DNA from: a virus
Reading direction: 5' to 3' (one strand)
IMG/VR virus record: IMGVR_UViG_3300031140_000050
Span: 1 to 21,609 of that record
DNA length: 21,609 nt
The notes under the pieces were generated by a model that saw only the letters and a list, made by a program, of their open reading frames with translations, was not told where the DNA came from and did no database searches. The translations under genes were made by a program, and so were the position numbers. Each line of letters opens with the position of its first letter. Position 1 is the stretch's first letter. Shown one piece after another: positions 3,542 through 21,609 of this stretch.

Positions 3542-5032
3542 TTACGCTGTTGTTACTGCGCCAATCGAACTTACGTTCGTAGCTGGAACAGTTACTACAC
3601 CATAGTAATCCTTACGAACTACTTTCTTAGCGTAACGTGTCATTACACCTTTTCTTGGCGTAAAGTTGGTTGGATCATAAACCAGTGGAGTCATAATTAA
3701 TGGAATATATGGCGCAAATACTGCTCCAGTTTCCAAGAATTGATTACCTCTGAATCCAACTAAGATATCATCACCAGTCCAATACGGGTTTTTGTAAACC
3801 GTCCATCTGTTTCTAAGTGCACCAACTGCGGTTACACCCATTGCAAATTTCTCTGATGTACCATCTGTATCAACTGAGTATCCTGGGATAGCTTCTAAAT
3901 ATGTTGCAACTTTCGGAGAACATACCATGAAGTTAGCACCACCACGCATAGTTGATTGATGTATAACATTAGACATATTTTGTAGCGTTCCACCTAACGT
4001 AGCTAGTTGGTCAGATTGAACCATACCACCTGAGATAGTTGGGAATGTGTGTGTTGCCGAAAATGCAGCAGCACCTTTTAACATTGCTAATATTTCCATA
4101 TCAATTTCCATTGAGATGTATTCAGAAAGCATTGATGTTAATTCAGCTTCTGCATCAATTGAATGATACGCATTCAAATCTTGTGCAAATTCTGGAGACC
4201 ATTTAACCTTTAGTTTACGTGTTTTCGCAACCAAAGCCTCTTGTTCTAGTTTAACTTCAATTTCTGGAATTTCAAGATCTACACCTTTACCATCCGCAGT
4301 TCCACCCATTTCAATTCCGACTTTGTCTTCAAAATCACCACGTAAATGTGCTGTTGCAGTATTTGCGTAATAATGAATATTACCTATAGCTCCAGCTATC
4401 ATACCATCAAACGTAGCAACGTTTCCTGTTGTAATTGATTTTACCGGATAATGTACAGAATTAGATACAAAATAGAATGATTTTGCTAAATCTAAATCTG
4501 CGTCAGCTAATGCGATAGTCGATGCAGATGATACTAATGTTACTTCAGCAGATACCTTTTTACCTAACGAGTAACCAGCAGATTCACCACGTACTTCACC
4601 ATATAATGCAGAAGCAGTATTTGCAGCACCTTTTTTGTCAGAATTACCAAACAAAGAATCGTCTTTAGTATTCTTACCTTTAGTTGTTCCGTATTTGAAA
4701 TCCATCCAGAAAACTAAACCAGAAGGCAAGTTCATTGGTTGTACAGATACAAATTCTTTTGCAGAAATTTCACCGAAAATTCTACGAACTAATGGTAATG
4801 CAACACCGTTCCAGTCTTCAGCTTGTCCACCAGCATTGATACTATTTGATTCTGAAATTAATTGTTTTGCTTGGTTTTCTAAAAGGATAGCAGTATTATG
4901 TTTGTTATAATCTGTATCGATTCCTTCTAGTAATCCAGTTGCTTCCCACTTTGTAACAAGACTCTTAGTCTCGTTTCTTTGTGCTCTAAATTGAGCTTGT
5001 GAGTCATTTAATAAGTCATTAATTTGTGACAT
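3542..5032 (-). CDS. 23: Major capsid protein (gp23-like)
   Basis: This 496-residue protein matches T4 gp23 (521 residues) in length and sequence. Key stretches are an N-terminal helical propeptide (about 1-61), LPLVRRIFGEISAKEFVSVQ, LPSGLVFWMDFKYG, and the C-terminal APYIPLIMTPLVYDPTNF. T4 gp23 loses its first 65 residues when gp21 cuts after Glu in an (I/L)xE motif; here LISE ending at residue 61 is the natural candidate site. The product forms the HK97-fold hexamers of the head. The ribosome site is strong (AGGAGAA) and lies in the short gap after the scaffold gene, so the two are probably co-transcribed. A strong terminator follows. No separate gp24-like vertex gene is seen in the window. 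Confidence 0.97.
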   Translation of the reverse strand: MSQINDLLNDSQAQFRAQRNETKSLVTKWEATGLLEGIDTDYNKHNTAILLENQAKQLISESNSINAGGQAEDWNGVALPLVRRIFGEISAKEFVSVQPMNLPSGLVFWMDFKYGTTKGKNTKDDSLFGNSDKKGAANTASALYGEVRGESAGYSLGKKVSAEVTLVSSASTIALADADLDLAKSFYFVSNSVHYPVKSITTGNVATFDGMIAGAIGNIHYYANTATAHLRGDFEDKVGIEMGGTADGKGVDLEIPEIEVKLEQEALVAKTRKLKVKWSPEFAQDLNAYHSIDAEAELTSMLSEYISMEIDMEILAMLKGAAAFSATHTFPTISGGMVQSDQLATLGGTLQNMSNVIHQSTMRGGANFMVCSPKVATYLEAIPGYSVDTDGTSEKFAMGVTAVGALRNRWTVYKNPYWTGDDILVGFRGNQFLETGAVFAPYIPLIMTPLVYDPTNFTPRKGVMTRYAKKVVRKDYYGVVTVPATNVSSIGAVTTA

Positions 5033-5059: not shown

Positions 5060-5875
5060 TTATTTTAAACCAGCCAGTCTTTGCATTCTAGATGAAAAGT
5101 GATTGGCTTCAACGATTACGTCCTTAGACGGTTTAGTTGACTTTGTTGCTTTAGATGCGAATCCTTCAGCTACACGTTGTTTTTTTGGAGAATATCCAGT
5201 TAATGATTCAGCTAATGTTGAATACACTAATTTTACTTCGCGTACTGAGTTTGCTCTGTCGAACGTTTCAATTACATTCATCTTTTGAGATTCAGATAAA
5301 TTGAACGATCTAAACAATTTGTTTGAGAACAACAGTTTTGAATTCAATAAATTAACTTCGTTGATTGTATCTTTCAAGGTTTGGATTGTCTTGTAAGCTT
5401 CCTCTAAGTCATTATTTTCTTCTACTGCTTCTTCTTCGTCTGCATCTTCTTGTAACGATTTGATGATTTCGTCTAAATCAATTTCTTCTTCTTCTTCAGC
5501 TTCAGGTTCTGCTGCTTCGTTTGTTTGACTTTCGTCTAACTCTTCTTCAGCTTCTTCTTCGTCTTCCAATTCTTTGATGATTGATTCTAACTCTAATGCT
5601 TCTTCATCCTCATCTTCAACAGCCTCTACTACCTCATCTTCTGCAGATTCTTCGTCTTCATTATCTTCTTCAGCTTCTGCGTCTTCAACTATGTTGATTT
5701 CGTCAAGCTCTGAATCGTCTAAATCGTCTTCCATATCTTCAGCTATTTTTTGTGATAGCATAGATTGAAGTTTCGGTGTGAAAGCTTCCTCTAATGCAAT
5801 TTTAGCGTTAGCTATCGCGGTTTCACGCACAGCTTTAGCGTCAGCAATTGCTTCTTTTAACAAGTCTTTTGACAT
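5060..5875 (-). CDS. 22: Prohead core scaffold protein (gp22-like)
   Basis: The start is placed at ATG 5873-5875 (MSKDLLKEAI) because AAGGAGAAA lies 5 nt upstream; a longer version would need a TTG start at 5926. The 271-residue product matches T4 gp22 (269) in length and in gene order before the capsid gene. It has an N-terminal helix, a very long Glu/Asp-rich coiled middle (about 45-170), and a C-terminal end with SSRMQRLAGLK, typical of gp22 relatives. The scaffold is degraded by the prohead protease during maturation; SQKIAE ending near residue 46 fits the (I/L)xE cutting rule. The acidity is normal for this family, and the GAA/GAC runs create Ser-rich false frames on the other strand. 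Confidence 0.92.
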   Translation of the reverse strand: MSKDLLKEAIADAKAVRETAIANAKIALEEAFTPKLQSMLSQKIAEDMEDDLDDSELDEINIVEDAEAEEDNEDEESAEDEVVEAVEDEDEEALELESIIKELEDEEEAEEELDESQTNEAAEPEAEEEEEIDLDEIIKSLQEDADEEEAVEENNDLEEAYKTIQTLKDTINEVNLLNSKLLFSNKLFRSFNLSESQKMNVIETFDRANSVREVKLVYSTLAESLTGYSPKKQRVAEGFASKATKSTKPSKDVIVEANHFSSRMQRLAGLK

Positions 5876-5907
5876 TGTTTTCTCCTTAAATATTTTGTTT
5901 GGAAATA

Positions 5908-5923
5908 GGGTTATTATGAACCC
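5908..5923 (-). promoter_or_regulatory. Small hairpin in the scaffold-gene leader
   Basis: GGGTT (5908-5912) and AACCC (5919-5923) form a 5-bp stem with a 6-nt loop. It lies in a leader of about 110 nt between the promoter-like motif at 5989 and the scaffold ATG at 5875, the longest leader in the window. There is no T-run after it, so it is not a good terminator. A role in mRNA stability is only a guess. Confidence 0.3.
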
Positions 5924-5988
5924 CAATAGAAATTATAATGTAGCAGGTGTATTATATATAAGATGATACATTTTTGTGCTATTCATTT

Positions 5989-6069: not shown

Positions 6070-6405
6070 TTACATTGCCTGGCCGTCAACAATTGTTGTC
6101 CAGCATTCAGTGTCATTCTCAGTTTCTCTAAACTTTTTCAGCCTCATAAACTCAGCACGAACTGCGTCTTTTTTCTTTTTTCGTCTTGCAACAGCTGGTT
6201 TTGTATATTCCATTCTGTCCTTGAATTCAGTTAAGATTTCTGATTCTTTAACCTGTCTCTTGAATATTTTAAGAGCTTTTTCCAAATCTCCAGTAGTTGG
6301 TCCTGGTACATTTACTCCATTTGGAATTCCTGGAATAATGAAGTCAGTTTTTTTTCTACTTGTCTTGTTTGAATTTTCACGATAATTACTTTGGTACTTT
6401 GGCAT
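6070..6405 (-). CDS. rpsU: Phage-encoded ribosomal protein bS21 homologue
   Basis: This 111-residue basic protein contains a full bS21-like core at about residues 37-95: GDLEKALKIFKRQVKESEIL, then TEFKDRMEYTKPAVARRKKK and AVRAEFMRLKKF. It matches the bacterial bS21 pattern of a helix with A+++FKR, an acidic/basic turn, and (R/E)xYxKPxxxRxxKxxxA. bS21 binds the small ribosomal subunit near the anti-Shine-Dalgarno end of 16S rRNA, and phage copies are known from pelagiphages and other large phages. This copy has an added 36-residue N-terminal part and a short C-terminal tail (TECWTTIVDGQAM). The ribosome site is weak (AGGA). It is flanked by terminators on both sides, so it has its own transcript; a possible AT-rich promoter (AATATAAAATAATAA) lies at about 6424-6438. 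Confidence 0.85.
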   Translation of the reverse strand: MPKYQSNYRENSNKTSRKKTDFIIPGIPNGVNVPGPTTGDLEKALKIFKRQVKESEILTEFKDRMEYTKPAVARRKKKKDAVRAEFMRLKKFRETENDTECWTTIVDGQAM

Positions 6406-6526: not shown

Positions 6527-6976
6527 TTAGTCTCCTATGTAGTTATCCAATACATCTTCAACAGCTTGCCAAGCTTTAGCAAATTTACGTGTTAATCCCT
6601 TGTCCTGCTTAGATATAATCTTATACATGTTACCCATTGCTGTGTGGTATTTGTTGTAGTTGGAATCAAATTCTGACGATTCATTTAACGTTGGTTCGGA
6701 GCTTTCCTTTAATTTTTTGCCCCAACCTTTGCCATATGTCTTAATCATTTCAGCATCGCTGTTCAGCTTAACCTTGCCATTCGATTCAACCTTATGCTTA
6801 CCATTACCATCTAATCCTAAATGAACATCGCCATTTGGTAGTTTAGCCGGTCCCTTTTGTTTCCAATTGAACCCAGTTGATTTTATGGTGGATCCACTCT
6901 TTGGATCGCTTCCAGCAAAGTTGTCAGCTTCAGCTATTGTAGTCTTGATCAATTGTATTAATTCAGTTTTTTTCAT
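6527..6976 (-). CDS. Unknown small protein, possible internal head protein
   Basis: This 149-residue protein sits between the protease gene and bS21. It starts MKKTELIQLIKTTIAEADNF, a short helix ending in IAE at residues 14-16, which fits the (I/L)xE rule of T4-type prohead protease and resembles capsid-targeting peptides. The middle is Gly/Lys/Asp-rich (GFNWKQKGPAKLPNGDVHLG, NGKHKVESNGKVKLN); the end is helical (RKFAKAWQAVEDVLDNYIGD). No known domain is recognised. It starts 15 nt after the protease stop with a weak ribosome site (GGAA), and a strong terminator follows, so it closes the transcription unit. A packaged core protein is a plausible guess, not shown. Confidence 0.75.
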   Translation of the reverse strand: MKKTELIQLIKTTIAEADNFAGSDPKSGSTIKSTGFNWKQKGPAKLPNGDVHLGLDGNGKHKVESNGKVKLNSDAEMIKTYGKGWGKKLKESSEPTLNESSEFDSNYNKYHTAMGNMYKIISKQDKGLTRKFAKAWQAVEDVLDNYIGD

Positions 6977-6991
6977 AGCTAATTCCGTATA

Positions 6992-7633
6992 TTACTTTTT
7001 TCGATTTGGTAATGCGCATTTACATGTTAAATCGCATAGCATATCGTTTATTATATTGTGAATGTTTACATATTTACTGGCTGGCATACTATTTGATACT
7101 GATTCATTTACACCAGCTGGATGCATAAATGCTCCATGTGTTGATGGATTGGATACGAAATCCCAACAAACTAATTCAAAATCGTCTTGTACTTCAACAG
7201 TTCCATTTTCTCTAATTTCTTTAACCGATCCTAACCCACGTGATGATATACCTAGCTTGATTCCAGCTTTAAGGAGTTCCTTCAATATGTTTCCAGATGG
7301 CGTTCCAAGTATTTCTACCTCTCCAACAACATCATCGCCTTTCCACCATACCTTTCTAATATTGTGCGATACATTAGATAGATTGACAACACTTGATTCT
7401 GGATGATCTAATTCACCTAATGCTCTATTTTCAGCGATAAATGTATCTGAATACTTTGTCACCTCGCGCATTAATATTTCTCTAGGATAAACTCGACCGT
7501 TTTGGTTTTTTGCACCTGAACGTTGTAATACGCCAGTTACTATTACTCTACCGTTATTATTTTTTTCTGATTCAGATATTAATTCTGGACTGATTTCGAA
7601 TAGACTATAGTCTACTAAAAGCTGCTTTGACAT
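6992..7633 (-). CDS. 21: Prohead core protease (gp21-like)
   Basis: This 213-residue protein equals T4 gp21 (212) in length. Conserved blocks are GVLQRSGAKNQNGRVYPREI, GELDHPESS with the likely catalytic His77, LGISSRGLGSV with the catalytic Ser at 130-131, and DFVSNPSTHGAF, which holds the third acidic residue. The family is a serine protease that cuts head proteins after (I/L)xE during maturation and removes scaffold. Its ATG overlaps the stop of the preceding gene in TAATG, and the site TAGGAGA lies inside that gene, so translation is coupled. Likely substrates in the window are the capsid propeptide, the scaffold and perhaps the proteins with N-terminal IAE or LNE motifs. Confidence 0.94.
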   Translation of the reverse strand: MSKQLLVDYSLFEISPELISESEKNNNGRVIVTGVLQRSGAKNQNGRVYPREILMREVTKYSDTFIAENRALGELDHPESSVVNLSNVSHNIRKVWWKGDDVVGEVEILGTPSGNILKELLKAGIKLGISSRGLGSVKEIRENGTVEVQDDFELVCWDFVSNPSTHGAFMHPAGVNESVSNSMPASKYVNIHNIINDMLCDLTCKCALPNRKK

Positions 7634-13591: not shown

Positions 13592-14167
13592 TTACCCAGT
13601 TATATTAGTCAGTTTTAATTTTTCGTTTTCAATGTATACATCAAATTCAGCTAGCAATTCGTCGTCGGATTTTCCACCTGACCAATCTTCAATGTCTCCA
13701 GCTTCTGATATTTGCGTCTTTGATCCACGTGTTTCTAGCCAGTCTTTAAATTCTGCCCTAGACTTGTGTAGCCATCCTTCAAAATTTCTATTTATTTGAC
13801 TGTTTTGCCATGCATCATATGTGCCATTTGATCGCATTTCCATTTCAGCATCAGTTTGACAGTGCAGACAATGTTTAAATCGCTTATACATGTATTTGTG
13901 CTGATCAGCTAGCATTCTACTGTCGCATTTTGGACAATGTAATGGTATCTTTGCCATTGCTCTAGCCTTATCCAATTTTGTAACGGTCTGTTTTATTCCG
14001 TTTTTGATTGTCCAAGTTTTACCATTGTTTTCCCAAACGTCACCTTCAATGTGTTTAGCCATTGATTCTTTGGTGTAGCCTGATCTAATTTGAGTTTTGT
14101 TAGTGTAGTCGCCTGTCACTAAATTTCTCATTCGTTGTACTTTGCTTTTTGATATATGCTTCTTCAT
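13592..14167 (-). CDS. Zinc-ribbon protein of unknown role
   Basis: The start is placed at ATG 14165-14167 (MKKHISKSKV); a longer frame would need TTG at 14221 and would overlap the upstream gene. The 191-residue product has a basic N-terminus, a conserved-looking block GDVWENNGKTWTIKNGIKQT, and a zinc site made of CPKC (78-81) and CLHC (100-103), an 18-residue gap apart. From memory, similar sequences (W-E-x-x-GKTWTIKNGIKQT followed by a zinc ribbon) occur in other T4-like phages as proteins of unknown function. The C-terminal third is acidic. Nucleic-acid binding is a reasonable inference from the zinc ribbon. It follows the NMNAT-ligase gene by 7 nt. Confidence 0.82.
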   Translation of the reverse strand: MKKHISKSKVQRMRNLVTGDYTNKTQIRSGYTKESMAKHIEGDVWENNGKTWTIKNGIKQTVTKLDKARAMAKIPLHCPKCDSRMLADQHKYMYKRFKHCLHCQTDAEMEMRSNGTYDAWQNSQINRNFEGWLHKSRAEFKDWLETRGSKTQISEAGDIEDWSGGKSDDELLAEFDVYIENEKLKLTNITG

Positions 14168-14174
14168 TGTAACT

Positions 14175-16454
14175 CTATTTATTATATTTAAACAATCCCA
14201 ATATTTGATTGATCGGAGCAAATGCGCCTGTTAATTTATATGTGTTGTTTTTATATACGAAGACTATTCCTTCGTTTGAAACTATTTTATCCATACCACC
14301 AAGTGATTGTAGTCGTTCTAATTCTAATTTTAACTTGGCTATTTGTACATCATCGCCTTTTTTCATAATATCAGCTATTGCTGATTTTAATTCCTTTTGC
14401 ATATCTCTTGCTGCCGAACGAGGATCTACGGCTAATACCGATTGCATATTGTATAATACCTCGGCACCCAATCCTAAGAATATCTCTTCGAATTTTCTAT
14501 TGTTGTTCTTAGCTATTTTTTTATGATCTTTTTTATCAATCTGTTTAGCCCAAGCAATTAACTTTTCATCTACCAATGTTTTCTTGTCTAGTCTAAACGA
14601 TTTTTCACCAAAGGCCCATCGTTTAGTCAATCCCATTAATTTGTCTTTGTCAAGTGTTTCGGGTGCATTTTCATTAATAAATTTTGTCCACCAACGCTGA
14701 TGATATTCTGCTAAACCGTCGCTATCTTTGAGACCAAATTCTGATTGTAGTTTAGTTATCATGCCATAGTATTTAGATTGCGAAACTTTGAAACTCTTTG
14801 ATTGAGGTAACACGGTGATAGGTGGTCCCTTTATTGTATATTTATCTTGCACATGTCCGTTTATATCTTCTATCATTTTAGCTAGTTTACCAGCAGCAGG
14901 TTGATTGCCTGATGTAGGATTACCTGACATGTCATATGTGGTTGTATTGTGGAATATAAGTAAAGCTTGACCATACGGAATAACATTTGTACTTCCTGGC
15001 CATATTACTTCTAGGTTCATGAATGTTTCACCATCAGCAAAGATTGATATTCTTTGTTTTTTCGATAACTTGCCTAATGCCGTTTCTAGATCCTTCATTG
15101 CAAAATTAAAACCATCGGATAATTCTCCTCTACCTGCCATCCAAGATTTAACTCCAGATAAATTCATTGCATTTTCACCCTTATCTTTTAAGTGTCCTTT
15201 ATTTCTAGCTGCAATGAGTCCTCCTTTTTCTTTCCAAGATATAGCTAATGCTTGTCCATCTGTCTTTTCACGTGTTAATTTGAGCTGACCTTTAAGTGCG
15301 TCTTTTACAATTTTTTTGAGATCTGAAAATGTTAGATTCATCTTTATATCGAATGGATGATTCATATGACCCCAAGCTCCGCCTTCTAATAGTAGCCCTT
15401 CGGTTAAAGCTTCTCCTGGTTTCTGCTTCTTCATTGGTTCTTGCTTGGAAGATGATATAGATGCGTCTGCATCCATAAAGCTTAAGAATTCGTATCCAGC
15501 AACGGTCGCTATATGCTTAGACCATTTTGTCCATCTGGTATATGCAACTCTTCCTTTTTTATCTTTAAGTAGATTTGTTCCACCATATTCGCCTGGTACA
15601 CCTATTGGAAAATAAGATACAGCTCCTGTTGGTCCTCCTGAGAAATCCTTTTTGAATTCTGTATCATGTTGAAAGAATTCGTCTTCTCCACTTATATAAT
15701 TAAGTACTTCCCAACCTAAATCTCTTGCGGATTTTTTGCCGAATTTCTTCCAAGATTTCTGATTTCCCCAATATCCCCTAGGTCCATCGTCAACAGAATC
15801 TCCCATGTGGGTTGCGTTTTCCTTAAGTAAATCTGGAATGCTAAAATGGGTGCAGAATCTTTCGACTAAATCCTTTGCGTCGATTAACTTAGATGTTATT
15901 AAATCATATGCAGCTTGGTCAAATTTTCCATATATTTTTTTAAAATTTTTCTTACGTTTAATTGGATCTAGATCTGATAACATGTTTCTAACATCTGTTC
16001 CACTTAATGTAGATAATCTAGGTAATCCATAAACATATCCAGCATCAACATGTCCCTGCGTCATGTCTGCATTGTAGGGTGAGTAATACTTACCACCTAG
16101 TCTTCCTGCGTCTTTTTGTCCTACTGCTGTAATGTACCGTGTATCTTTGTTGAACTTAGATAATATCTCCTTTGGATTGTATGGATTTTTAACTTCTACA
16201 ATTCTAGTGGAATTTATACCGAACATTTTAGATATTATACTTTGCTTTTCTTTAAAGTTCATTGGAGATTTTGGCATTTGAACTTTGTTAGATGTACATA
16301 TATAAACGTTATTCTTTCCAAATTTGTCTACTAAATGTTTGTAGTTCTTATAATGCCCAGAATGAAACGGTTGGAATCTGCCTGCATATACTACAACAAG
16401 CTCATCTTTACTTTCATTGATAAACGATTCAGCTATCCAATTACCTAATTTCAT
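14175..16454 (-). CDS. NMNAT-type nucleotidylyltransferase fused to ligase-type nucleotidyltransferase
   Basis: This 759-residue protein has two recognisable parts. Residues about 18-190 form a nucleotidylyltransferase of the NMNAT/cytidylyltransferase class: GRFQPFHSGH (25-34) holds the HxGH site, and LSTLSGTDVRNML (147-159) fits the C-terminal ISSTxxR-like motif. Residues about 355-759 look like the covalent nucleotidyltransferase fold of RNA/DNA ligases: KTDG (397-400) as motif I with the adenylated Lys397, AARNKG (415-420), FADGETFMNLEV (472-483) as motif III-like, and EGIVF (728-732) with YKLTG (739-743) as motifs IV and V. The long stretch between motifs III and IV is unusual. The N-terminus contains WIAE and FINE, fitting prohead-protease sites. 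It overlaps the kinase gene as ATGA. Substrates are unknown; the ligase assignment rests on motifs only. Confidence 0.85.
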   Translation of the reverse strand: MKLGNWIAESFINESKDELVVVYAGRFQPFHSGHYKNYKHLVDKFGKNNVYICTSNKVQMPKSPMNFKEKQSIISKMFGINSTRIVEVKNPYNPKEILSKFNKDTRYITAVGQKDAGRLGGKYYSPYNADMTQGHVDAGYVYGLPRLSTLSGTDVRNMLSDLDPIKRKKNFKKIYGKFDQAAYDLITSKLIDAKDLVERFCTHFSIPDLLKENATHMGDSVDDGPRGYWGNQKSWKKFGKKSARDLGWEVLNYISGEDEFFQHDTEFKKDFSGGPTGAVSYFPIGVPGEYGGTNLLKDKKGRVAYTRWTKWSKHIATVAGYEFLSFMDADASISSSKQEPMKKQKPGEALTEGLLLEGGAWGHMNHPFDIKMNLTFSDLKKIVKDALKGQLKLTREKTDGQALAISWKEKGGLIAARNKGHLKDKGENAMNLSGVKSWMAGRGELSDGFNFAMKDLETALGKLSKKQRISIFADGETFMNLEVIWPGSTNVIPYGQALLIFHNTTTYDMSGNPTSGNQPAAGKLAKMIEDINGHVQDKYTIKGPPITVLPQSKSFKVSQSKYYGMITKLQSEFGLKDSDGLAEYHQRWWTKFINENAPETLDKDKLMGLTKRWAFGEKSFRLDKKTLVDEKLIAWAKQIDKKDHKKIAKNNNRKFEEIFLGLGAEVLYNMQSVLAVDPRSAARDMQKELKSAIADIMKKGDDVQIAKLKLELERLQSLGGMDKIVSNEGIVFVYKNNTYKLTGAFAPINQILGLFKYNK

Positions 16455-17155
16455 TTTGTGTTCCTTAATTCTAGTTCAGCGTCTATCCAACTCTGTGCTA
16501 TTTTATTTTGTATTGGGCGACGAACAAATTTAGACGCTGTTTGCTTGATTGATTTTGAGAAGTCAGCTTTAACTGAATTGTCTATGCTAATGAAGTTTTT
16601 GTCACCAAATAATGTTTTATATTTTTTTAGATTTGCTTGGCATTCTTTCCATGATCTGTTTACCAATTCTACTGGTACCCGTCTTGGTCTAGATTCGTTT
16701 CTAGATAATGCAACTTCTAGTGTGGTATTTATGAATGTCATATAACAGTCGTAGCCTTGCTTTTTCAACATTTTTACCTGGGCAGCGATCTTATTGTAGT
16801 CTTTACCTGTACCGTCTATCAATAAGCCAAGTTTGCCATTCAAATAATGCTTGAGTCTAGAACTAGTTATTGATTTTGCTGATTTGCGTATTTGTTGGGA
16901 TTTGGCATATTCTTTAGCACTTAATTTTGTCATATCAAGGTCAATATTATGTTTTGCCATGATTAGCTCAAATGCTGAGTCTGAATTTACTCCCTTTAGT
17001 CCGTCGCTTGATACGGTTGGAGTTGATTCCGGCATACCGAATAATGAATTTGCTGCGAAGGATTTGCCTGAGCCTGGACCACCTGACATAAAAACTGCCT
17101 TAAATATTCCTGGATCATATGTGCCTTCATTCAATAAATCTATCATCTTTATCAT
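16451..17155 (-). CDS. P-loop kinase (zeta-toxin/polynucleotide-kinase type)
   Basis: This protein has up to 234 residues. It shows Walker A GGPGSGKS (25-32), SSDGLKGVNSDSAFE (49-63), a Walker B-like LLIDGTG (111-117) and an Arg-rich lid SRNESRPRRVP (151-161), as in zeta-toxin-like and polynucleotide-kinase-like P-loop kinases. Related kinases occur in marine T4-like phages. There is no antitoxin gene, so a toxin role is not supported. Its stop overlaps the NMNAT-ligase start (ATGA), so the two are translated together and may share a pathway such as nucleic-acid end repair. The promoter-like motif ends only 4 nt before ATG 17155, so the real start may be the ATG three codons later (17144-17146). 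The beginning, MIDLLNEG, carries an LNE motif. Confidence 0.85.
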   Translation of the reverse strand: MIKMIDLLNEGTYDPGIFKAVFMSGGPGSGKSFAANSLFGMPESTPTVSSDGLKGVNSDSAFELIMAKHNIDLDMTKLSAKEYAKSQQIRKSAKSITSSRLKHYLNGKLGLLIDGTGKDYNKIAAQVKMLKKQGYDCYMTFINTTLEVALSRNESRPRRVPVELVNRSWKECQANLKKYKTLFGDKNFISIDNSVKADFSKSIKQTASKFVRRPIQNKIAQSWIDAELELRNTK

Positions 17156-17407: not shown

Positions 17408-18223
17408 TTAACCTCCAGTAATTGTTATGTTGTCTAGACATATATCGCCCTTATATGTTGTTCCAGATTTTGCGAAGAACCATACGTATACGCCAGCTGC
17501 ATTGCCTGCAATATTGTTCAAGTCAATTTCAGCTTTTCTCCAATATCCTTGTGTAGATGTACTGGTATGTCCTGAAGTCTGCTGCTGGCCTGTTATCCGA
17601 TCTGATGTCGTGGTAGCTGTCCCAGTGTTATTTGTCCAATGTAATATGTCACATCCGCCACCAGTATCAGAAGTAAATCCAAATCCAGAATAAGATTCTA
17701 CGGAACTATCTGCGCTGGTTGCACTATCTGTAATTGCTACACCCAATGATCCTATATTCGCACCATACATATGATACCAGAATTCCAACTTTAAGGTGCT
17801 ATTTGCTGCGGCCGAAGATAGGTCTATCTCAGGAGTTCGCAATACAAATCGCTTATTATATTGGCCAGATGTTTCAGTATATATATATTTACTGGCAGCA
17901 GTTGTTGCTCCAGTTGTTAGTGATTCGTTCATACCGTATTTAGGCCCAGTATTAGATGACGGAGTTGTTCCACCTTCAATATCCCATTTCCGAGTTGAAG
18001 TCGTTGAACCATAGATTGTCGCAGCAATATTATTCAACCAACCTGTTGGTGATACTCCATAGCCTTCGGATATGGCATTAAAGTTTTCCGATAGTAACGT
18101 TGCGCTTGATGCAGCTGGAATTGCTATTGCCGTCATATAGTATATGGAAGCTTTTGCTACACCAGATACTTTTGCAATAGTAGATATAGGGACGGCTGAT
18201 ACTTTCGCTATAAACGCTGGCAT
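17408..18223 (-). CDS. MAM-domain adhesin-like virion protein
   Basis: This 271-residue protein has an N-terminal repeat-like piece (AKVSAVPISTIAKVSGVAKA, residues 6-25) and then one MAM-type jelly-roll domain (about 46-269). MAM hallmarks are W80 followed by GGTTPSSNTGP, YIYTETS (113-119), LRTPEIDL (128-135), FWYHMYG (148-154), the late W228, and GDICLDNITI (259-268). MAM domains mediate adhesion in animal proteins and also occur in bacterial surface proteins. Here, after two fibre genes and with a TAATG overlap to the preceding one, it is probably a receptor- or glycan-binding part of the virion. No signal peptide or enzyme motif is seen. The domain call is strong; the role is inferred. Confidence 0.87.
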   Translation of the reverse strand: MPAFIAKVSAVPISTIAKVSGVAKASIYYMTAIAIPAASSATLLSENFNAISEGYGVSPTGWLNNIAATIYGSTTSTRKWDIEGGTTPSSNTGPKYGMNESLTTGATTAASKYIYTETSGQYNKRFVLRTPEIDLSSAAANSTLKLEFWYHMYGANIGSLGVAITDSATSADSSVESYSGFGFTSDTGGGCDILHWTNNTGTATTTSDRITGQQQTSGHTSTSTQGYWRKAEIDLNNIAGNAAGVYVWFFAKSGTTYKGDICLDNITITGG

Positions 18224-20004
18224 TATGCTATCTCAATCCAAGTGTTATCAGGGCTAAAATATATTGGTGCAGTTGTACCTGTGCTATAACCAATTATTCT
18301 AACGACATCCCCGGTTGCAGTTGGTTTAGTTTTTGATAGTCCACCGGCTGTTGTGCTTAAGTATATAGGGACTCCGGGTTCGCCAGCTGGATTTGACGTT
18401 GGATGGATGAGACCGCTAACCAGCATACCATCAGCTAATGCACTTGTTCCTACGGCCATTCCTAACATTGTTGTTCCATAGTTGACTGTTGCTGATGCAG
18501 CATGCCATGTGCCAGAACCCTTTAGATAGTATATTCCGCCAGCTACTGTTGAACCAGTTGCGGTGTATATCACATTTCCTTGTGCGGGTCGATATGTTGC
18601 GTGCAGTGAAGTTGGAAGTAACACAGTTTGATCAACATCTAGGTTATTACCAATAATTGTGTCAGTGAATACTGCAAGGTCATTAAACGTTGCACGACCA
18701 TTGAAAGTTGACCTCCCTTCAGTAGTAACATCACCATTATTATTTATCGTCATTCGGACTGTATTATCTGTGCCAAACTGAATATCATTTGTTGTACTAC
18801 CACTAATACCTATCAATAATGCGTTGGCAGTTGTACCAGAATATGGTAAATCATTTGGAGCATCACCAGCGTCACCAACATGGCCAATATAACTACCAAT
18901 TCCACCACCATCTTGACTAAGTTTTATATATGAATTCTTGGATTCATCATCATTATTTGGATCAGCTGCTATTGTTAATGATGCATTGCCGGTTGTTGTT
19001 GATACCACCAAGTTACCAGCTATTGTTTGATTTCCACTAGCTAATGCTGTTGCAGTTCCAGCGTTACCAGTAATCGACGTTTGATCGCCTGTATTTGTTC
19101 CACTTAAATTTGAACCAGCTAATGTACCACTTGCACTTACGTGGCCAGAAGCTGTTACGTCACCATTCATAGTTATCGGATTTGCAGATTTACCTATCCG
19201 TATTGGCGTATTATTTTCATAACCTAAAGTCATAGCGGCAGCAGTATACATCCCAACTGGATGACCCTCAGAATAAAATCTGTCGGCAGATATATCGCCA
19301 CTTGCACTTACATGACCAGAAGCTGTTATATCGCTTAACGAATTTATGCCGCCATACACTTTTAAACCTAGTCCTGCACTACTAGATATTATAGTTTCAT
19401 TATCAGGTATCAGTGATAGGTCTTGATTTGCATATATTTCTAAGTCATCTGGCGTATCCGAATTAACCCCTATGTATGAGTTGGATGATCCTTCATGAAA
19501 AAGGACTCTATTGCTATTCATATTGAAATTGGACAATACATCTATTGTTGCTACTGGCGAATATATCTTTGGATTAGTAGAAGTCCATGTACTACCACCC
19601 CTAAGTTCTATTCCCCTAGCTGATGGTCCTACGAATAACGAACCTGTGTTGAGACTGTCTCCAATAGATAATCCCTTAAGGACTATTGAATCTAAAGAAT
19701 GCACAACGCCACTCGCGCTTATATTGCCAGAGGCTGTTATATTTCCAGTAAACGTATGCTCGTCTGATACTGAATCTCCGAATGCTGTAGATCCTGAGCT
19801 AAATGAAGTTGTCATGTGTGTTACTGATGATGATATAATATAGTTTTCTGCTGTCAATGTTTCGACTGCAAAATTACTAGATACGCTCGAACCAGAACCA
19901 TAGTATAACTTACCAGAATCTAAGTTTATTGCTAACTCGCCTTCTTCTAAGCTTGATGGAACGGAATTACCAGTTCCCCTTTTTATTCGTATTGTCTGTG
20001 ACAT
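18223..20004 (-). CDS. Tail-fibre protein with ASG repeats
   Basis: This 593-residue protein begins with a widespread phage-fibre start: IRIKRGTGNSVPSSLEEGEL, then AINLDSGKLYYGSG. After this come beta-helical stretches with three copies of a short repeat: NITASGNISASG (88-99), DITASGHVSASG (225-236) and DVTASGHVSASG (282-293), and the motif SGTNTGDQTSITGNAGTATA. The last 130 residues form a different globular-looking domain (NVIYTATGSTVAGGIYYLKG, then GEPGVPIYLSTTAGGL, ending PIYFSPDNTWIEIA). No intramolecular chaperone end (Ser protease type) is visible. The role, a trimeric fibre or part of one, is inferred from these patterns. The ribosome site is AAGGAAA, with a promoter-like motif 16 nt before the ATG. 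Confidence 0.88.
   Translation of the reverse strand: MSQTIRIKRGTGNSVPSSLEEGELAINLDSGKLYYGSGSSVSSNFAVETLTAENYIISSSVTHMTTSFSSGSTAFGDSVSDEHTFTGNITASGNISASGVVHSLDSIVLKGLSIGDSLNTGSLFVGPSARGIELRGGSTWTSTNPKIYSPVATIDVLSNFNMNSNRVLFHEGSSNSYIGVNSDTPDDLEIYANQDLSLIPDNETIISSSAGLGLKVYGGINSLSDITASGHVSASGDISADRFYSEGHPVGMYTAAAMTLGYENNTPIRIGKSANPITMNGDVTASGHVSASGTLAGSNLSGTNTGDQTSITGNAGTATALASGNQTIAGNLVVSTTTGNASLTIAADPNNDDESKNSYIKLSQDGGGIGSYIGHVGDAGDAPNDLPYSGTTANALLIGISGSTTNDIQFGTDNTVRMTINNNGDVTTEGRSTFNGRATFNDLAVFTDTIIGNNLDVDQTVLLPTSLHATYRPAQGNVIYTATGSTVAGGIYYLKGSGTWHAASATVNYGTTMLGMAVGTSALADGMLVSGLIHPTSNPAGEPGVPIYLSTTAGGLSKTKPTATGDVVRIIGYSTGTTAPIYFSPDNTWIEIA
19132..19746 (-). repeat. Short coding repeats in fibre genes
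   Basis: Imperfect copies of about 36 bp encode x-(I/V)TASG(H/N)(V/I)SASG. Three lie here (about 19132-19170, 19299-19335 and 19709-19746). Two more are in the next fibre gene (about 20111-20146 and 21040-21078). Differences are mainly at third codon positions, so selection acts on the protein. They could also allow recombination between fibre genes. Confidence 0.75.
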
Positions 20005-20037: not shown

Positions 20038-21609
20038 TTAGAATGTTCCACCATCTATTGTGCCATCCATGTCAGTCAAGCTACCAATGTAACTAGTTGC
20101 CGTTATTGTTCCACTTGCGCTTACGTTACCAGACGCTGTTATATGTGTATCTACCTTTAAATTGCCGTATACTCTAGTCTCCATACTTTCACTGACGGAG
20201 AATAGTCGATTACCGTAACCAACTGCGCCACTATTACTTTCAATCACAAACTTAGCTGCGGGCTTTTGATCATCTGCATCCAATAATATTGCGAAACTTC
20301 CAGACCCCTTCTGCGTTATTGACCCCATTACTTCGTCTGGATCAGATAGTACTGCTGATTCTGCCCTAAGTATAGTTGATCTACTACCAGCTGTAGCATT
20401 AACAGCTACGAATCCCTGAGTCTGAGTTCCTATTTGTACAGATGAGGCTGCGCCAAATGCACCCATGTTGACTTCTTTTACTCTAATTTTTTTGTAATCA
20501 CTACCTGATATAAATTGTACGTCGCCACTTGTATTATCAATACCCATTCTAGCATGCTCTACTGCATCGGATCCTGAATCATCGGCTGATGCACTATAGA
20601 ATATAATTGAACCAGTTGAAACGTGAATGTGTCTAAATGGGAATCGCTTGCTACCCAATGAATGGTATTCTGGTCTATCCGGAATCACATCTCCACCAAC
20701 TATTGTTGCTCCATTCCTAACGTATAATGAATAATGAGCTTCACCGGGTCCCTTGAAGAACGTCTCAAGCTTACCATCATTATACGTTTGCTTTTCAGAT
20801 CCAGATATACCAATTATTGCAGGTCCAGACTTCAAATTACCCTCTATTGCATGGTTATCAGTTGTTGCATTTCCGAACGAAGTGTTACCAGTTGATGTTA
20901 TGGTTGCAAAAGTTGCATTTGTGTTGGTTGTTGCCTTTGTATTGATATTTGTTTGCAATATTGAGCTAGATGCATTTAATTGTGCGTTAGTGGAATAGGC
21001 TGTTAAGTCTTGATCTCCACTATTATGCCCTATTATATTGGATGCGCTGATATGTCCGCTTGCACTAACCGTTGTTACATTTGTTATTGCATTACTTGCC
21101 ATATCTAAAGTCTGCGTTGCAGTATGGTCGCCTAGATCATCTGCTCCAGCGATAGCCGTTGAAAGAGAAGCCGAAACATCAGCAAATCCACCTAAAGAGA
21201 ATGTGCTAGTTACTTCTAAGCTACCAGTTATAACTGCATCTCCAGTATATGGAAAACCTGCGCCTGATCCTCCAGTGATTCCCTGATATGCAGATGCGCT
21301 TAGTGTACCTGCTATTTCGAAGTCGCCTATCAATTTTAGTGGTGATGTTATTGTTTGTATTGCACCAGCAGAACTCAAAGAGAATTTATCCGGATCTATA
21401 TAATTGTACGTTAGAGGGTAGTATGTTACCAATCCCCTAGAGGCGTTACGATCTTCCTTCACATATGTACCAGCGAACTGTTTTTTCGGATAATAGACAT
21501 CGTAAGTAGCATTATTTGATTGTGAAGGGTAGTTTTGGAACCAGACAGTATCTCCTGATGATGATACTACATATTTTACGCCATATACACTGTGTGATGC
21601 ATAAGTTGT
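20038..21609 (-). CDS. Fibre protein, 5' end outside window
   Basis: The frame is open to the window edge; a GTG at 21460-21462 is only an internal codon, since the sequence upstream codes without stops (including VSSSGDTVWFQNYPSQSNN and YDVYYPKKQFAGTY). At least 523 residues are present. It holds the same repeat type as the next fibre gene (SASGHISAS; HITASGNVSASG near the C-terminus), NTSFGNATTDNHAIEGNLKS, and a block YHSLGSKRFPFRHIHVSTGS, typical of marine phage fibre or virion-surface proteins. The C-terminus ends SLTDMDGTIDGGTF. It is a fibre or long virion-surface protein by composition and neighbours. The N-terminal attachment region is not visible. Confidence 0.85.
   Translation of the reverse strand, partial: TTYASHSVYGVKYVVSSSGDTVWFQNYPSQSNNATYDVYYPKKQFAGTYVKEDRNASRGLVTYYPLTYNYIDPDKFSLSSAGAIQTITSPLKLIGDFEIAGTLSASAYQGITGGSGAGFPYTGDAVITGSLEVTSTFSLGGFADVSASLSTAIAGADDLGDHTATQTLDMASNAITNVTTVSASGHISASNIIGHNSGDQDLTAYSTNAQLNASSSILQTNINTKATTNTNATFATITSTGNTSFGNATTDNHAIEGNLKSGPAIIGISGSEKQTYNDGKLETFFKGPGEAHYSLYVRNGATIVGGDVIPDRPEYHSLGSKRFPFRHIHVSTGSIIFYSASADDSGSDAVEHARMGIDNTSGDVQFISGSDYKKIRVKEVNMGAFGAASSVQIGTQTQGFVAVNATAGSRSTILRAESAVLSDPDEVMGSITQKGSGSFAILLDADDQKPAAKFVIESNSGAVGYGNRLFSVSESMETRVYGNLKVDTHITASGNVSASGTITATSYIGSLTDMDGTIDGGTF

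Follow-up and report, generated by a model that had tools for sequence, protein, structure and literature searches.

An RNA ligase-type fusion protein and its neighbouring kinase as a candidate head-packaged, protease-cut enzyme set of T4-type phages

The stretch analyzed here (the window: 21,609 nucleotides, positions 1 to 21,609 of IMG/VR virus record IMGVR_UViG_3300031140_000050) is a virus contig of 21.6 kb with a T4-type head cluster on its minus strand: terminase, gp20-type portal, gp21-type prohead protease and gp23. On the same strand, upstream of the terminase, lie a gene for a P-loop kinase (16451-17155, 234 residues) and one for a fusion protein (14175-16454, 759 residues) that strings unrelated domains together on a single chain: an NMN adenylyltransferase-like (NMNAT) domain, a middle domain and a ligase-type nucleotidyltransferase domain. 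We propose, with a probability of roughly 0.6, that kinase and fusion are packaged in the head, the fusion as a polyprotein that the prohead protease cuts, and are injected as a ready RNA-repair kit, which perhaps also supplies nicotinamide adenine dinucleotide (NAD). Packaging in the window phage is well supported by inference, and we further infer cleavage, injection and RNA repair there. A previous, sequence-only reading had seen the ATGA overlap of the two genes, which is indeed read directly on the minus strand, but it missed the T4-type leaders, the border motifs and the head-gene setting, which shift the interpretation from a gene pair towards a packaged, processed polyprotein.

In T4, proteins are directed to the prohead core by their capsid-targeting sequences, and the protease gp21 cuts after leucine or isoleucine, any residue and glutamate ([LI]xE), a motif beyond which few specificity determinants are known (PMC9026906). 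The T4 internal proteins (IPs) are then ejected into the host (PMC9026906, PMC3012670, PMC12373910). The fusion begins MKLGNWIAE/SFINE/S and the kinase MIKMIDLLNE/G (slashes mark predicted cuts), both resembling the MKTYQEFIAE/A of T4 IPII and IPIII. The glutamate E10 is kept in six of six aligned kinases, five of which have the strict [LI]xE, and an N-terminal [LI]xE is present in all 19 representatives of the fusion and ligase proteins (58 proteins with complete 5' ends, thinned at 85% ligase identity). The plain motif is a weak test: an N-terminal LxE occurs in 37 of the 162 open reading frames (ORFs) of a 147-kb record assigned to the same species, which holds an identical copy of the pair, against 13% of interior windows, a mild enrichment, and we therefore used stricter tests. 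A strict T4-like capsid-targeting pattern, which was defined after the list of N-terminal LxE motifs had been viewed, is found in nine of the 162 ORFs, compared with an average of 0.86 in shuffled sequences (at most 5 in 2000 shuffles), and at one of 798 internal methionines; the nine include the kinase, the fusion and the probable scaffold. Apart from the genes treated here, five other ORFs in this species have a T4-like leader, for example MIKLRNILNE/GG, MIKLTNIIAE/AS or MKLKKILSE/HA, and are candidate injected head proteins: four at loci L016-L017 (G001 13830-14339, 14390-14779, 15737-16117 and 20784-21092) and one, HNH-like by eye, at L018 (G001 50087-51790).

The same motif is repeated at the borders of the domains. 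Relative to the proteins' own composition, the 19 representatives contain 36 [LI]xE in N-terminal residues 3-22 (3.4 expected), 21 in the linker before the middle domain (1.9 expected) and 28 in the 12 residues before the ligase (2.0 expected), while the ligase interior is depleted, with 37 found and 67.0 expected, and the NMNAT interior has 5 for an expected 15.8. A local-composition control, whose expectation already includes the motif, makes the contrast smaller and keeps its sign (found/expected: N-terminus 36/11.7, mid linker 21/7.9, pre-ligase 28/11.9, ligase 37/63.5, NMNAT 5/9.2). The permuted motifs E.[LI] and [LI]E. occur 125 and 101 times in the ligase interior, above the 63.5 expected and thus not depleted. 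The set leaves out L012 (5' cut), the duplicates L002, L004 and L007, and the 32 of 80 loci whose ORFs run off the start of the contig; L037, L058, L060 and L094, cut at the ligase start, have no entry in the ligase set, and the same sites of the stand-alone ligases L015 and L080 enter both the N-terminal and the pre-ligase counts.

At the first junction, [LI] stands two residues before E212 in 20 of 21 aligned rows, and a mid-linker [LI]xE is present in 12 of the 12 representatives where the linker could be located. At the second, a glutamate immediately precedes GGAxGH in 17 of 19 representatives, and the motif takes the doublet form in 13 of 19. When distinct upstream windows are counted, truncated ORFs included, [LI]xE precedes the ligase in 56 of 58 (0.09 at random), KOW-like modules in 21 of 26 (0.10) and CCA-adding modules in 5 of 5 (0.19); the ligase count uses the pattern GGA.GH and omits L013, L014 and L015, of which L014 and L015 have the site and L013 does not.

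Relatives keep these elements when the domains are split, joined or exchanged. The ligase family occupies at least 584 places in IMG/VR, 80 of which were examined, and a query with the full fusion found 3 of 50,697 phage records; relatives are 401 to 1848 residues long. Five stand-alone ligases (L015, L052, L080, L091 and L096) have the leader element at their N-terminus: the LR756500 protein starts MKFLKSYEEFLNE/NLILE/GGSYGHL, and the four from IMG/VR (L052, L080, L091, L096) have starts such as MIRLKKLLSE/VLLNE/GGAYGHM. The fused protein L032 and the fused, 5'-truncated L092 contain this element internally, initiator methionine included (MIRLKKLLNE/VLLTE/GG and MIRLKKILKE/VLLKE/GG), and by this mark are joined genes that retained the leader. 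In L106 the middle domain is fused to a kinase, at LTE/A. Further modules include CCA-adding/PcnB domains (PolyA_pol, E 2.9e-29 in L085, 4.6e-27 in L053 and 4.8e-31 in L028), HD, GNAT and KOW-like domains, as well as a Pol-beta transferase carried by L011. Microcystis phage Mel-JY01 has a fused gene of this kind (WWT39297), with its predicted cut after E238, immediately ahead of GGLGGHM. No peptidase family was found in the window protein by Pfam, or among six long relatives searched with an E threshold of 0.01. We lean slightly towards a broader reading, in which aquatic T4-type phages would carry a Gag-Pol-like head-packaged cassette with fixed protease sites and leaders and exchangeable enzyme modules, dissected by the prohead protease and delivering, before phage gene expression, an RNA-repair kit whose leading enzyme would belong to a hitherto undescribed family of ligases marked by a helical insertion.

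In the proposed mechanism, capsid-targeting propeptides would draw the nascent kinase and fusion into the prohead core, and inside the prohead a gp21-family (S77) protease would cut after [LI]xE, trimming off the propeptides after E9/E14 (fusion) and E10 (kinase) and splitting the fusion within its linkers, after E212 and E352/E357. This would free an NMNAT-type transferase, the middle domain and an RNA ligase-type enzyme. DNA would be packaged around the freed enzymes, which would be ejected with it and act at once in the new host: kinase and ligase would restore tRNAs or other RNAs cut by host ribonuclease defences, with CCA-adding and Pol-beta transferases assisting in relatives, and the NMNAT domain may supply NAD.

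Known phage RNA-repair enzymes, T4 Pnkp and RNA ligase, are synthesized once infection has begun, and RNA-cleaving defences act early. If the proposal is true, head-carried repair enzymes would close this gap, and one packaged chain from which the prohead protease releases several enzymes would be a new route for loading heads. It would also provide a simple sequence rule, LxE at the N-terminus and at the domain borders, by which injected proteins could be recognized in uncultured phages. The recurrence of NMNAT-like and transferase proteins in cyanophage virion proteomics would be explained as well.

We favour RNA repair as the likelier action because the ligase and the kinase are constant company in the window phage and because relatives add CCA-adding and Pol-beta transferases; a jumbo-phage review places such transferases, RNA ligases and kinases together in sets for tRNA repair (PMC7824862). 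The sequence-only reading had suggested a possible RNA-repair system, recalling T4 Pnkp and RNA ligase, and it is the theme that gains from the relatives' modules, while the Pnkp-like form does not stand. The predicted P-loop kinase itself is upheld by Pfam (Zeta_toxin 2.6e-10, AAA_33 3.6e-10) and PHROG ('polynucleotide kinase' 1.8e-7), and it shares with T4 Pnkp the Walker A motif and links by PHROG and PDB profiles. T4 Pnkp, however, is bifunctional with a HAD phosphatase; no phosphatase domain was found in the 234 residues, where P-loop kinase families alone matched, and in the profile search L-seryl-tRNA(Sec) kinase (PSTK; 7.4e-8) and zeta toxin (7.3e-6) score better than T4 polynucleotide kinase (3.5e-5). 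We therefore rejected T4 Pnkp as a name for this enzyme.

The main rival, which we consider unlikely, is that the head-packaged set serves mainly to supply NAD against NAD-depleting defences: the NMNAT would make NAD, the kinase would make NMN in the manner of a nicotinamide riboside (NR) kinase, and the ligase would be secondary or NAD-consuming. Such a role could coexist with RNA repair. The HxGH nucleotidylyltransferase recognized in the sequence-only reading is confirmed by Pfam (CTP_transf_like 7.7e-5, exceeding the family cut-off), by the signatures HSGH and SGTDVR and by a model whose best Foldseek match is the NMN adenylyltransferase 2r5w (E 1.3e-5), a fold that fits NAD synthesis. The two cyanophage papers discussed below favour NAD synthesis for virion NMNATs (PMC10665884, PMC9602691), and the jumbo-phage review lists an NMNAT fused to a P-loop kinase (PMC7824862). 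Residues H34, S151, G152, T153 and R156 are invariant in 21 of 21 rows. However, the first histidine of HxGH is kept in 18 of 21 relatives and the motif reads GxHH in the other three, the stand-alone forms retain the ligase and not the NMNAT, and the modules added in relatives are RNA-directed. The kinase also fits poorly: its matches are PSTK, zeta toxin, polynucleotide kinase and adenylate kinases, with neither NadR nor NR kinase among the 39 profile matches listed.

A quite unlikely alternative is that the two proteins are ordinary late cytoplasmic enzymes, with LxE in leaders and linkers arising by chance or as helical caps and with neither packaging nor cutting. The motif has only three residues, its plain N-terminal form is common in the species, and the virion proteomics concern homologues rather than the window phage. 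Against this stand the enrichment at borders with depletion inside the ligase, the position of the genes in the late head cluster and the detection in virions of homologues with a similar N-terminus. Specifically, S-CREM2 virions yielded peptides of the cytidylyltransferase gp154 (3 unique) and of gp156 (6 unique) (PMC10665884), and S-SCSM1 virions the NMNAT ORF91 (QFG06348.1) by mass spectrometry (PMC9602691), although both author groups note that such matches may be carry-over. The proteins gp154 (MKNFSSFLTE/A) and QFG06348.1 (MKSFLQFLKE/A) share with the window fusion the HxGH transferase and a T4-like leader; they differ in being unfused to a ligase and only distantly related in sequence (our alignment A3 against the S-ShM2 homologue: hhalign E 6.7e-5, probability 64). 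The second S-CREM2 protein, gp156, is a homologue of the Pol-beta insert in L011 (30% identity, E 1e-36). As a single control, the jumbo-phage NMNAT-Nudix enzyme CBB_113 has its fold from the first residues, with no leader.

The ligase-type assignment rests on fold and invariant motifs together, which we regard as good evidence. The motifs listed in the sequence-only reading (KTDG, AARNKG, a motif III-like block, EGIVF and YKLTG) prove real and conserved: E396, K397, T398, D399, G400, A415, A416, R417, N418, E482, E728, G729, F732, K740, T742 and G743 do not vary in any of the 29 aligned rows, K397 being the KTDG lysine. The same residues except T398 and A415 are invariant in a 9-row alignment that overlaps the first in membership and adds three more divergent proteins. 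The profile searches gave less: no Pfam family matched residues 358-759 (scattered weak matches over nine members, best E 0.014), and no convincing match came from the PDB profile search (best E 0.046, the target not a ligase). The AlphaFold2 model (mean predicted local distance difference test score, pLDDT, 85.9) ranks nearest to ligases: in Foldseek against the PDB, rows 1-27 are RNA or DNA ligases and rows 1-17 RNA/tRNA ligases, the best E being 4.5e-3 with no match at E ≤0.001, and in the VIA ranking rows 1-44 are ligases and the top 23 RNA/tRNA ligases, the best Z of 7.4 (182 residues, 4.2 Å) being middling by the tool's own note. The nearest core folds are those of T4 RNA ligases 1 and 2, fungal tRNA ligase and Naegleria RNA ligase, which share motifs I, III, IV and part of V; the PDB profile search found no sequence similarity to them. 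They differ from the window ligase by its 206-residue insertion between motifs IIIa and IV, a nearly all-helical block in the model, and by its motif V. In classical ligases motif V is KxK, and here it reads KxT, EGxxF and the first lysine being invariant. Alignment and model support the view, earlier suggested by the long insertion, that these ligases form a group of their own marked by a helical block. The sequence-only reading had named two outcomes that would speak against it, a fold unlike the nucleotidyltransferases and a KTDG lysine that varies among relatives, and neither was found.

The C-terminal domain could also be a nucleotidyltransferase of other use, in DNA ligation, nucleic-acid capping or protein modification, which we regard as very unlikely. 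DNA ligases and capping enzymes do appear in the fold rankings, and the KxT and helical insertion are unusual; however, RNA/tRNA ligases fill the top of both rankings, and the domain keeps company with CCA-adding, Pol-beta and kinase modules. That the proteins enter the head chiefly as parts of its core or scaffold, inactive as enzymes in the next host, deserves the least credence of all: T4 core proteins likewise carry LxE sites and are cut (PMC9026906), but here the catalytic residues are invariant in all 29 rows and enzyme modules are swapped while the sites are kept.

Several points weigh against packaging, cutting and injected RNA repair. The 401-residue ligase L047 has MLLE alone and no longer propeptide, L006 and L013 have no site directly before the ligase, and upstream of the remaining modules [LI]xE is present in numbers too few or uninformative to help (Zn-ribbon 3 of 6, GNAT 1 of 1, HD 3 of 3, ParB-like 2 of 3, unnamed 0 of 2). 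In the window protein four [LI]xE lie inside domains, at E87 and E198 of the NMNAT and E583 and E595 of the ligase; the motif alone therefore does not mark a cut, and context must matter if the protease cuts at the predicted sites. The kinase profile, though nearest to the RNA-directed PSTK, fits several substrate classes. To these are added the late definition of the strict leader pattern, the middling fold matches and the possible carry-over in virion samples.

The proposed packaged and cut polyprotein resembles known kinds of system. T4 IPI-IPIII and Alt have a capsid-targeting sequence, are cut by gp21 and injected, and likely act against defences (PMC9026906, PMC3012670, PMC12373910); as in the window, a short N-terminal propeptide ends in LxE, and a gp21-family protease is encoded in the window's same cluster. 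They are, however, single units that lose a terminal propeptide, whereas the window strings together enzymes of other kinds (ligase and NMNAT, with CCA-adding modules in relatives) and has the motif at internal borders. Polyvalent proteins likewise hold unrelated enzyme domains in one chain, are predicted to enter the host with DNA and shuffle their modules, among them Pol-beta, ParB-like and GNAT domains that also occur in the window relatives (PMC5512222). Their processing is ascribed to embedded zincin-like peptidases, in contrast to the prohead protease predicted here to act in trans, and to the leaders; a passage of that account (Iyer et al., 2017; PMC5512222) names RNA ligases only as not associating with the 2H domains of polyvalent proteins. 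Injected T4 internal proteins and polyvalent proteins are known kinds. In the open PubMed Central literature (preprints aside) we did not recognize an enzyme polyprotein that has T4-type leaders and is cut at internal borders by the prohead protease, or one of this kind with an RNA ligase, which is not proof of absence, nor did we meet a description of the window ligase family there.

A separate-gene arrangement with similar parts is found in HTVC008M (AGE60460-AGE60464), where genes for a KxDG protein (DUF6267), a KOW-like protein, a kinase and an NMNAT-like protein adjoin, most with LxE near the N-terminus. DUF6267 was rejected as a sequence relative of the window ligase (hhalign probability about 1%); the resemblance, KxDG...EGYV, is by eye. 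The DUF6267 proteins of Synechococcus phage S-ShM2 (L112, 1339-2259) and HTVC008M (L107, 7245-8477) show KWDG, HEGFV/PEGYV and KLV by eye, and the family may be a ligase-type nucleotidyltransferase adjoining an NMNAT gene. Agrobacterium phage Atu_ph07 (L109, 5986-10590) encodes adjacent proteins that start MRWEQLxE or MKWNDLNE and have repeated sequence features, one of them fused to a kinase; this looks like another leader-tagged injected set. An ART domain in its AUZ94865 was seen by eye and dropped, Pfam not reporting it. If accessions are consecutive, AUZ94865 would be CDS 53, which falls within CDS 31-76, a cluster that includes 29 virion proteins.

Predicted features of the window, with their positions, strand and the basis of each assignment
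Feature	Position	Strand	Basis
P-loop kinase, 234 aa	16451..17155	-	Pfam, PHROG, alignment, profile matches
Kinase residues 1-10, MIKMIDLLNE/, predicted capsid-targeting propeptide	17126..17155	-	Alignment and pattern test
Walker A, GGPGSGKS	17060..17083	-	Kinase alignment
Fusion residues 1-14, MKLGNWIAE/SFINE/, predicted capsid-targeting propeptide with two prohead-protease motifs	16413..16454	-	T4 IP comparison
NMNAT / HxGH nucleotidylyltransferase domain, residues 16-200	15855..16409	-	Pfam, Foldseek, alignment
Junction 1, residues 209-212, LLKE/N, predicted protease site, NMNAT/middle domain	15819..15830	-	E212 invariant (21 of 21 rows)
Middle domain (DDGP domain), residues 213-349	15408..15818	-	Alignment; also kinase-fused in L106
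Junction 2, residues 350-357, LTE/GLLLE/, double protease motif directly before ligase	15384..15407	-	Upstream-window counts
Ligase-type nucleotidyltransferase domain, residues 358-759	14178..15383	-	Alignments, AlphaFold2, Foldseek and VIA rankings
Motif I, KTDG, K397 the predicted adenylated lysine	15255..15266	-	Invariant in 29 of 29
AARNKG block, residues 415-420	15195..15212	-	A415, A416, R417, N418 the same in all 29 rows
Motif III-like block, residues 480-488, E482 invariant	14991..15017	-	Both alignments
Helical insertion (residues 518-723) separating motifs IIIa and IV	14286..14903	-	Model secondary structure
Motif IV, EGIVF, residues 728-732	14259..14273	-	E728, G729, F732 invariant
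Motif V, YKLTG, residues 739-743	14226..14240	-	K740, T742, G743 invariant
Prohead protease, T4 gp21 family, predicted processing enzyme	6992..7633	-	Pfam Peptidase_S77 4.9e-31; PHROG head maturation protease 1.7e-56
Probable scaffold, starts MSKDLLKE/A	5060..5926	-	gp22-like by place and acidity alone
Major capsid protein gp23	3542..5032	-	Pfam Gp23 2.3e-76

The middle domain has a pLDDT below 50 over most of its length, so that its fold is not confident. A search of the viral-structure library gave 14 matches at E ≤0.001, the top ones being relatives labelled cytidyltransferase-like or nameless, and pointed to no function. Within the head cluster, the prohead protease has its own LISE/S near the N-terminus, gp23 has LLE/G, LLE/N and LISE/S in its N-terminal region, and the probable scaffold has no Pfam or PHROG match. 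A 149-residue protein at 6527-6976 (minus strand) begins MKKTELIQLIKTTIAE/A and, with no convincing family match, is a possible further head-internal protein. Between protease and scaffold, 6070-6405 (minus strand) encodes a ribosomal protein S21 domain (Pfam 5.2e-13), and Microcystis phage Mel-JY01 has an RpsU gene at the matching place. Directly downstream of the ligase, 13592-14221 (minus strand) encodes a small protein with a CxxC...CxxC pattern; similar proteins (VQRMRNLV...GY...EGD.WE) also follow the ligase in L010 and L106, with related-looking ones in L005, L006 and L014. On the other side of the pair lie two minus-strand genes that are probably for tail fibres or adhesins: 17408-18223, a MAM-domain protein (Pfam 1.1e-12), and 18223-20004, with an N-terminal Mtd_N match below threshold.

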